DNA of 64,000 nucleotides. Origin: Chromobacterium violaceum ATCC 12472 (GTDB taxonomy: Bacteria > Pseudomonadota > Gammaproteobacteria > Burkholderiales > Chromobacteriaceae). This document shows positions 42,469-45,807 of this stretch, piece by piece; within the stretch, counting starts at the first letter, position 1; each line of letters begins with the position of its first letter. The notes beneath the pieces were generated by a model. That model ran no database searches. It was not told the DNA's origin and saw only the letters and a program-made list of their open reading frames with translations. Position numbers and translations under genes: made by a program. The DNA lies in contig NC_005085.1 in NCBI RefSeq assembly GCF_000007705.1, positions 1,178,001-1,242,000 on the forward strand. The letters are read 5' to 3'.

Positions 42469-43842
<1,374 letters not shown>

Positions 43843-44131
43843 AAGGGTTCCTTCGAGTGACTTGAGATATCACCAGCAACGAGCGGTGTTTTTTGTTTTT
43901 TATGCATGCCTTGGATTTTGTAGGCAGCGCAAGATCATATCGATTAAATGTTGAGATGTGAAAATTTTTTTTAAACAAGATCAATTACATTGTAATAAAT
44001 AGAGCAAATGCTTTTCTTTATGGATGATTTTTTGCTAGTCAATACTCTAAGTTTTATGAGTTTATTGCATGTCGGCTATTGTTGAATGTATACAAATCAA
44101 TGCCCTGATTGTTTCTGTTAGTTGATGATTG
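43843..44131. promoter_or_regulatory. AT-rich divergent region between POT gene and tnaC
   Basis: About 290 bp without a gene. It is the most AT-rich stretch nearby (43880-44080 in particular) and must hold the POT promoter and upstream part of the tna control region. The GATTAAATGTTGAGATGTGAA region and ATTACATTGTAAT (43985-43997, a perfect 13-bp inverted repeat around a central base) are candidate protein sites. I see no clear CRP box. Confidence 0.4.
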
Positions 44132-44161
44132 TTGCGCAGTCTGACAATTCTGGCCTATCTT
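44132..44161 (+). promoter_or_regulatory. Candidate tnaC promoter
   Basis: TTGCGC (44132-44137) and TATCTT (44156-44161) with an 18-bp spacer form a moderate sigma-70 promoter. Transcription would start around 44168, near the base of the leader hairpin. Weakly supported. Confidence 0.35.
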
Positions 44162-44202
44162 GAGGTTGCGCCCGCGTCCGGGCGACCGTGCAACTGCCTC
44201 AA
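44160..44202 (+). promoter_or_regulatory. Leader hairpin preceding tnaC
   Basis: TTGAGG-TTGC (44160-44169) pairs with GCAA-(CTG)-CCTCAA (44190-44202), enclosing GCCCG/CGGGC (44170-44174 with 44179-44183). The right arm overlaps the AAGGTG ribosome site of tnaC (44201-44206), so the hairpin could affect leader translation if it lies inside the transcript. Confidence 0.45.
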
Positions 44203-44211
44203 GGTGTGGCG

Positions 44212-44319
44212 ATGAACATCGAACCCCATGCTGGCCAGGCGCTGACTCACCTCAATGGCCTGCGTCCCAACTGGTATACCGTCGACATCATCCTGACGTT
44301 CGACTTTCCGCACGCCTGA
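44212..44319 (+). CDS. tnaC: TnaC leader peptide of the tryptophanase operon
   Basis: This 35-residue peptide lies about 100 bases upstream of tnaA, with an AAGG ribosome site before its ATG. The single Trp (21), Asp (25) and Pro (33) have exactly the spacing of the essential Trp12, Asp16 and Pro24 of E. coli TnaC (NWYTVDIILTFDFP here). Leu28 aligns with Ile19. In E. coli, free tryptophan arrests the ribosome at Pro24 and blocks Rho, allowing tnaA expression. Unlike E. coli, two codons (His-Ala) follow the Pro before UGA. The assignment rests on position plus spacing. Confidence 0.83.
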   Translation: MNIEPHAGQALTHLNGLRPNWYTVDIILTFDFPHA

Positions 44320-44421
44320 TCTCCTCCGGCAAACGTTCCCTATTTGTTTCGATCGCATGACGGCTGGCCGCCGCCCTGTCCGCCTTCGAGCGGACGGCGC
44401 GACCGCGCCGAGGAGAAGACC

Positions 44422-45807
44422 ATGGCACGACGCATTCCCGAACCGTTCCGCATCAAGATGGTGGAGCCGATCCGCCAAACCACCGCCGAATACCGCCGCC
44501 AGGCGCTGCAGGAGGCCGGGTGGAATCCCTTCCTGTTGAAGGCCGAGGATGTCTATATCGATCTGTTGACCGACAGCGGCACCGGCGCGATGTCCGACCG
44601 CCAGTGGGCCGGCCTGATGATGGGCGACGAGGCCTACGCCGGCAGCCGCAACTTCCTGCGGCTGGCCGACACCGTGCGCGAGCTGTTCGGCTACGCGCAC
44701 ACCATTCCCACCCACCAGGGGCGCGGCGCCGAGCAGATCCTGTTTCCGGAGCTGGTGAAGCGCTGCCGCGGCGAGCGGCCGGTGTTTCTGTCCAACTACC
44801 ATTTCGACACCACCAAGGCCCATGTCGAGCTGGCCGGCGCGCGCGCGGTCAACGCGCTGACGCCGCGAGCGCTGGACACTGGCGCGGCCTACGACTGGAA
44901 GGGCGACTTCGATCTGGCGCGGCTGGGCGAGATCGTCGAGGCCGAGGGGGAAAACGTCGCGGCCATCATCGTCACCGTCACCTGCAACAGCGCCGGCGGC
45001 CAGCCGGTGTCGATGGCCAATATCCGCGCGGCCAGCGCACTGGCCCGTTCGAAGGGCATTCCGGTGGTGATCGACGCGGCGCGCTTCGCCGAGAACGCCT
45101 GGTTCATCCGCGAACGGGATCCGGCCTATGCCGGCGTTGCCATCTCGTCCATCGTGCGCGAGATGTTCGATTACGGCGACATGTTCACCATGTCGGCCAA
45201 GAAGGACGGGCTGGTCAATATCGGCGGCCTGTGCTGCTTCAAGAACGATGAGGCGCTGTTCCGCGCGGTGCAGGTGCGCTGCGTGCCGATGGAGGGCTTC
45301 ATCACTTACGGCGGCCTGGCCGGCCGCGACATGGAGGCGTTGGCCATCGGCCTGAAGGAGGGCTTGGATGACGCTTACCTGAGCTATCGCATCGGCCAGG
45401 TGGCCTACCTGGGCGAGCGGCTGCGCGAGGGCGGCGTGCCGATCCAGACCCCGACCGGCGGCCACGCGGTCTTCGTCGACGCCGCGCGGCTGCTGCCGCA
45501 TATCCCGGCCGGGCAGTTCCCCGCGCACGCGCTGGCCTGCGAGCTGTATCTGGAAGGCGGCGTTAGGGCGGTGGAGATCGGTTCGCTGCTGCTGGGGCGC
45601 CATCCGCAGACCGGCCGGCAGGAGCCGTCGCCGTTCGAGCTGATGCGGCTGACGATACCGCGGCGGGTCTACACCAACGACCATATGGACTACATCGCCG
45701 ACTGCCTGATAGACGTGAAGCGGCGCGCGGCGGGGGTGAGAGGGCTGGTTTTCGACTACGAGCCGCCGATATTGCGCCACTTCACCGCGCGGCTGCGGCC
45801 GGCGTAG
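44422..45807 (+). CDS. tnaA: Tryptophanase
   Basis: TnaA is a PLP-dependent lyase that splits tryptophan into indole, pyruvate and ammonia. The 461-residue protein has [39 protein letters not shown], the PLP-lysine segment MSAKKDG, and SFLLGR-like SLLLGR. The related tyrosine phenol-lyase has Arg after SME in RSMERG, but this protein has RAVEIGS as in tryptophanase. Some regions ([30 protein letters not shown]) resemble tyrosine phenol-lyase, so biochemical specificity is worth noting. The tnaC leader favours TnaA. No tnaB permease follows. GAGGAG precedes the ATG. Confidence 0.92.

Follow-up and report, generated by a model that had tools for sequence, protein, structure and literature searches.

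The window analysed here is a stretch of 64,000 nt from Chromobacterium violaceum ATCC 12472 (contig NC_005085.1, positions 1,178,001 to 1,242,000 of the forward strand), and coordinates below count from its first letter. It carries a tryptophanase-family gene, tnaA, preceded by a short leader ORF, tnaC, with 102 nt from the tnaC stop codon to tnaA. The features of the locus, with the evidence for each in brackets, are as follows.

42469-43842, opposite strand, upstream: POT-family transporter gene, divergent from tnaC-tnaA
44201..44204, + strand: tnaC Shine-Dalgarno (SD) sequence AAGG (sequence)
44212..44319, + strand: tnaC, 35-codon leader peptide, ATG at 44212, UGA stop at 44317-44319 (ORF reading, family conservation)
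44272..44274, + strand: Trp21 codon, counterpart of E. coli Trp12 (W in 49/49 family loci)
44284..44286, + strand: Asp25 codon, counterpart of E. coli Asp16 (D in 49/49 family loci)
44305..44310, + strand: Phe32-Pro33 codons, Pro33 being the predicted P-site residue at arrest (F, P in 49/49 family loci)
44311..44316, + strand: His34-Ala35, two-codon tail (two codons in 48/49 family loci, five in one)
44317..44326, + strand: UGA and anti-SD sequence TCTCCTC (44320-44326) (inverted-repeat scan, folding, covariation)
44367..44406, + strand: GC-rich inverted repeat within the tnaC-tnaA spacer, not terminator-like (inverted-repeat and terminator scans)
44410..44416, + strand: tnaA SD sequence GAGGAGA, complement of 44320-44326 (inverted-repeat scan)
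44422..45807, + strand: tnaA, tryptophanase-family gene, 461 aa, ATG at 44422 (protein-family profiles)

The tnaC product reads MNIEPHAGQALTHLNGLRPNWYTVDIILTFDFPHA, followed by UGA. A first-pass annotation of this DNA had proposed a TnaC leader here, and its coordinates agree with ours: a 35-codon ORF with an AAGG ribosome site and 210 nt from the tnaC ATG to the tnaA ATG. The window peptide also has the residues it described, Trp21, Asp25 (+4), Leu28 (+7) and Pro33 (+12), with His34-Ala35 between Pro33 and UGA. The features by which TnaC is recognized, a short ORF with a ribosome site just upstream of tnaA and the spacing of Trp, Asp (+4), Ile/Leu (+7) and Pro (+12), are both found. The Pfam profile PF08053 (Tna_leader) gave no match to the window peptide at E up to 10, compared with 3.7e-20 for E. 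coli TnaC. Because this is a 24-position profile, we read the missing match as a limit of the model; a PF08053 match is not among the experimentally defining features of TnaC.

The best NCBIfam match of the tnaA protein is TIGR02617, at 727 bits and below the cut-off of 825.8, and the protein exceeds the cut-off of NF009709/PRK13238. The next gene is GST-like and lies on the opposite strand, so that no tnaB follows tnaA in the window. Searches found no Rfam match in 43800-44500 at E up to 1, no CRP-like site near tnaC by a crude pattern, and no second TnaC copy in the host genome, where only the known place was matched. Ribosome parts for Trp sensing are kept. Alignment of one of the eight host 23S copies (L162) with E. 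coli 23S revealed the same bases at the equivalents of A752, A2058, U2585 and U2609 (E. coli numbering), and host uL22 contains the RAKGR motif, which we take to include K90.

A hairpin over the tnaC ribosome site (44159-44203), another proposal of the first-pass annotation, is indeed predicted in the window, where the site is paired with a probability of 1.00. Among 11 of the 12 existing loci of the genus that were folded (L015 was left out), the site was fully paired (1.00) in just three, the window included, and the other eight gave 0.40-0.76. The hairpin is thus not clearly conserved in the genus, and the folds do not support it as a conserved part of the tnaC leader.

TnaC leaders in the host family and beyond

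tnaA was detected at E 1e-60 or better in 49 of 61 host-family genomes, and a TnaC leader with the right spacing lies upstream at all 49 loci, which bears out the conservation in close relatives that had been put forward as an alignment check. Trp, Asp (+4), Leu (+7), Asp (+10), Phe (+11) and Pro (+12) are each present in 49/49 leaders, with synonymous changes at all of these codons except the single-codon Trp. W, D (+4), NTN (+7), F and P were prescribed by the stricter search pattern, which left open whether +7 was Leu and +10 was Asp; a looser pattern that required only W...D gave the same 49 leaders. Mean pairwise differences over the 13-codon tnaC core were 0.20, 0.11 and 0.43 at codon positions 1, 2 and 3. 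Taken together, the occupancy of every locus and these codon-position differences indicate that the leader did not arise by chance. The leaders of Aquitalea, Vogesella and Crenobacter match loci of the family set; NCBI places the first two in Chromobacteriaceae and Crenobacter in Neisseriaceae. No such leader was present among the listed ORFs at the second, roughly 50%-identical tnaA homologues (L058, L059) or at nine distant homologues from the class search (L061-L069); the tenth, L060, is a record without upstream DNA.

In 48 of the 49 family leaders two codons follow Pro, the first of them coding for Arg in 43 and for His in 5; one leader has a five-codon tail. All 49 end in UGA. This uniform stop codon would suit an arrest at the release-factor step, at UGA after His-Ala instead of at Pro33, and E. 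coli TnaC is reported to block RF2 while Pro occupies the P site (PMC8429421). We consider such an arrest very unlikely, since the distance of Trp and Asp from the active site would then exceed that in E. coli and P. vulgaris by two residues, and since tailed leaders outside the family end in UAA, UAG or UGA alike. The likeliest reading of the leader is instead that TnaC of the window would arrest at Pro while the A site holds a sense codon. P. vulgaris TnaC is described as arresting at Pro32 with Lys33 next, where Trp blocks transfer to Lys-tRNA (PMC3902921). The earlier suggestion that arrest blocks transfer to the next aminoacyl-tRNA therefore survives as a reading of this peptide, and its novelty does not: P. 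vulgaris had already shown that such arrest can occur when no stop codon occupies the A site, and we rejected elongation arrest as a new finding.

Outside the family, leaders were surveyed at the best 80 named tryptophanase relatives of a longer list. TnaC-like leaders were found at 36; no W...D leader lay within 800 nt at 42 (for example L087, L091 and L097-L102; L103, counted among them, is without upstream DNA), and the W...D matches at the two others, L120 and L132, look fortuitous. Leaderless Clostridia and other non-proteobacterial tryptophanase loci are presumably regulated otherwise. The 35 non-family leaders used below are the 36 minus eight, namely L081, L082, L084 and L134, which match family-set loci, and L138, L142, L143 and L146, near-copies of L137, plus seven plasmid or E. 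coli loci (L070, L072-L074, L077-L079). Removal of the near-copies L078 and L094 gave a set of 33. The tnaA start codons of the 35 loci were picked by a simple rule, without one-by-one checks.

Tailed leaders outnumber the E. coli form among the 35 non-family loci read here: Pro at +12 is followed by a tail in 21 and directly by a stop codon in 8, and 6 leaders are without Pro at this position. Phe precedes Pro in 21/21 tailed versus 3/8 tail-less leaders, and the five exceptions, all enteric, may represent one event. Replacement of Arg23 by Phe in E. coli TnaC is reported to reduce the Trp requirement about 30-fold, and homologues are described as commonly having Phe at this position (PMC8429421). 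The family leaders, with Phe before Pro, would accordingly be expected to be Trp-sensitive.

Pro at +12, needed in E. coli, is missing from L078, L137, L138, L142, L143, L146, L072 and L074 (Vibrio or Vibrionales) and from the Edwardsiella leader L153; WYTLDHQLSFHLSSE, WYNLDYCLSLLSKISAR and WFNLDTILVEFFS-stop are examples of such TnaC-like leaders. In E. coli strain EC5 (L079), UAA directly follows Pro24 of tnaC, where the E. coli stop codon is described as UGA (PMC10941005).

Predicted pairing between the tnaC end and the tnaA Shine-Dalgarno sequence

An inverted-repeat scan of the window identified the seven nucleotides right after UGA, 44320-44326, as the perfect complement of the tnaA SD at 44410-44416. 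This complementarity, a more unusual feature than those the first-pass annotation had described, suggests a translational output. In predicted folds, the probability that the SD pairs with the first 14 nt downstream of the stop is 0.94 in the window and exceeds 0.5 in 34 of the 49 family loci. Mean SD pairing over the family was 0.64, compared with 0.12 for dinucleotide-shuffled spacers and 0.23 when the first 14 nt were shuffled. The number of loci above 0.5 dropped from 33/49 to no more than 10 and 16, respectively, in 12 replicates each; this comparison used slightly shorter folds, with 33 loci in place of the 34 of the main folds. The initial family measures were modest, with 18/49 loci in the best 5% of positions and 9/49 beating 95% of local shuffles, and the minimum free energy of the whole window leader was no better than that of shuffles (z 0.5).

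When a ribosome footprint was modelled on Pro, the mean cost of opening the SD in the 49 family loci fell from 6.5 to 3.0 kcal/mol, compared with 6.0 kcal/mol for masks elsewhere in the spacer, and the decrease was at least 1 kcal/mol in 41/49. The window itself showed a small gain of 1.5 kcal/mol (3.4 to 1.9); its footprint extends to about 44323 and overlaps four of the seven anti-SD nucleotides. Of the 35 non-family leaders, 12 had a pairing probability above 0.5 and 17 a footprint gain of at least 1 kcal/mol. A ribosome on Pro overlaps the anti-SD arm, so that arrest on tnaC would probably make the tnaA start site accessible, either in addition to Rho antitermination or in its place.

We then compared how well each leader's own arms pair with how well arms swapped between leaders pair. 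For a fixed window right after the stop, set beforehand, own arms beat swapped arms with p 0.0002 in the 35 non-family leaders, and also with 33 leaders and 10 nt. The same window gave p 0.00035 with one leader per genus label (41), and 0/20,000 permutations were as good for 75 distinct leaders. A scan of 19 offsets in the 33 leaders peaked at the last codon, the stop and the following 6 nt, with -2.69 kcal/mol after removal of row and column effects (sd 0.32; z -8.4, taken at the best of the 19 offsets; 0/100,000 permutations), compared with -0.32 for composition-preserving shuffles. The signal centres on the stop codon, with p < 0.05 at offsets -12 to +2. None of the offsets tested between -48 and -18 or between +4 and +36 was significant in the energy scan; the nearest was the control offset +12, with p 0.053 by energy and 0.044 by longest helix. 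Uninterrupted helices of at least 7 bp occur in 13/33 leaders versus 3.2 expected from swaps. Examples, with G-U allowed, are V. campbellii (GUUAAUUUCCU with AGGAAAUUAAC, 11 bp), Tistrella (CUGAUCGCG with CGCGAUCAG, 9 bp), a Cardiobacteriaceae MAG (AGUCCUCUU with AAGAGGAUU, 9 bp), Pantoea (AUGUCUU with AGGACAU, 7 bp) and, in the family, L013 (UGAUCUUCUC with GAGAAGAUCA, 10 bp). Taken together, these comparisons show, at the level of sequence, that complementarity of the tnaC end to the tnaA SD covaries across distant TnaC leaders.

Within the host family, swaps between genera were not significant, either in the first test (locus p 0.067, genus p 0.55) or in four draws of one leader per genus (p 0.08-0.57). 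All 43 distinct family pairs gave p 0.002 and the window's genus p 0.044, values uncorrected for relatedness. The one family leader with a five-codon tail, L015 (HPTRC), belongs to the window's genus and has its own matching arm, GUUCUaCCC with GGGAGAAC.

The lack of significant covariation between family genera would fit a mechanism as in E. coli, in which the arrested ribosome only hides a Rho-loading site by the tnaC stop, the C/U-rich tract is a rut site and its complementarity to the SD is incidental. In E. coli, the rut site is reported to follow the tnaC stop directly (PMC10941005). By eye, many of the 49 family spacers begin with C/U-rich sequence, and no terminator-like site was found in 43850-44430. 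However, a rut tract need not match an individual SD, whereas own arms outside the family fit far better than foreign ones, beyond composition-matched shuffles, and the stop codon itself is often part of the pairing. We therefore regard Rho loading as unlikely to be the whole explanation. The position of the stop codon inside many helices would favour plain translational coupling, since each terminating ribosome would melt such a helix; any ribosome finishing tnaC would then open it, and Trp arrest would add little. Coupling would not require the residues known to matter for Trp arrest, yet W, D, I/L and P are kept in 49/49 family leaders, and we judge it quite improbable.

The stop codon and the tnaA start region also vary together, although composition may contribute to each of the following counts. 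UCA occurs near the tnaA start in 37/56 UGA-ended versus 7/23 UAA-ended loci, UUA in 17/23 UAA-ended versus 6/56 UGA-ended loci, and CUA in 2/5 UAG-ended leaders. The constant UGA of the family may thus be partly explained by pairing with UCA near the tnaA start, which weakens its value as a sign of arrest at the stop codon. For the last tail codon, the sign of pairing near the tnaA start was only suggestive (p 0.05). Of the leaders without Pro at +12, L072, L074 and L137 have long predicted helices with the tnaA start site (12, 11 and 9 bp) and L153 has one of only 4 bp, so arrest may use another residue.

A proposed translational output of TnaC and its relation to known systems

We lean towards the interpretation that tnaC-tnaA is a Trp-inducible leader in which arrest at Pro33 holds the anti-SD helix open for tnaA translation. 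Abundant free Trp would be bound in the exit tunnel of a ribosome that has just added Pro33, and this ribosome would fail to pass the peptide to His-tRNA, an elongation arrest as in P. vulgaris TnaC. It would cover the last tnaC codons, UGA and the start of the anti-SD sequence (44320-44326), so that the helix to the tnaA SD (44410-44416) would be kept open and tnaA translated. At low Trp, the ribosome would read His-Ala-UGA and depart, the helix would reform and tnaA initiation would be blocked. Rho may also end the untranslated transcript under these conditions; such polarity could add to control by the helix, and the two outputs are not exclusive. The Trp-dependent arrest in the window, its position and its control of tnaA translation are what we infer from these comparisons.

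TnaC is a model nascent-peptide sensor, and Rho antitermination is what is taught as its output. The covarying helix that would join the tnaC end to the tnaA ribosome site predicts direct control of translation and would account for the location of the arrest. More tentatively, TnaC could be at root a translational switch across Proteobacteria, in which the tnaA start is locked by a tnaC end that covaries with it and is opened by Trp-arrested ribosomes; the E. coli Rho mechanism and Pro-stop peptide would then be a derived enteric form with a weakened lock. We think this possible but doubtful. The mainly open-access literature searched gave the work on ribosomal protein L4 described below and no description of a lock on the tnaA SD, and priority is uncertain; the abstract of a 2009 P. 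vulgaris paper reportedly mentions predicted leader folding patterns, which might include a helix between the tnaC end and the tnaA SD.

Like E. coli TnaC, the window peptide precedes tnaA and has the four required residues. They differ in that E. coli tnaC has its stop directly after Pro24 and Arg before Pro, whereas the window has His-Ala after Pro33 and Phe before it. The E. coli spacer is 220 nt long versus 102 nt in the window, the E. coli-type operon has the tnaB permease gene after tnaA and the window does not, and the E. coli anti-SD helix is weak (P 0.40). The established E. coli output is Rho antitermination (PMC8429421, PMC10941005). Ribosomal protein L4 is also reported to control E. 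coli tnaA translation through the tnaC-tnaA spacer, but there, unlike in the proposed lock, a protein binds the spacer; the RNA probed for L4 starts at spacer nt 35 and so lacks the tnaC-end arm and could not show the helix (PMC7186457).

The window leader resembles P. vulgaris TnaC in the spacing of Trp, Asp, Leu and Pro and in the sense codon after Pro; a Proteus hauseri leader reads WFNIDSELAFFFPKK. It differs in the tail, which is His/Arg-x in the family and Lys-Lys in P. vulgaris, in having WYTVD where P. vulgaris has WFNID, and in that tnaB does not adjoin tnaA. The erm leaders are translational attenuators, like SecM-secA. In SecM-secA, arrest is described as holding open an mRNA helix that otherwise hides the ribosome site of the next gene (PMC10501990). 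The proposed switch would likewise use nascent-peptide arrest to keep a ribosome-site helix open; unlike SecM-secA and erm, it would sense free tryptophan and rely on a TnaC as the arresting peptide. Elongation arrest itself being known, the new element would be this joining of TnaC sensing to a SecM/erm-like output.
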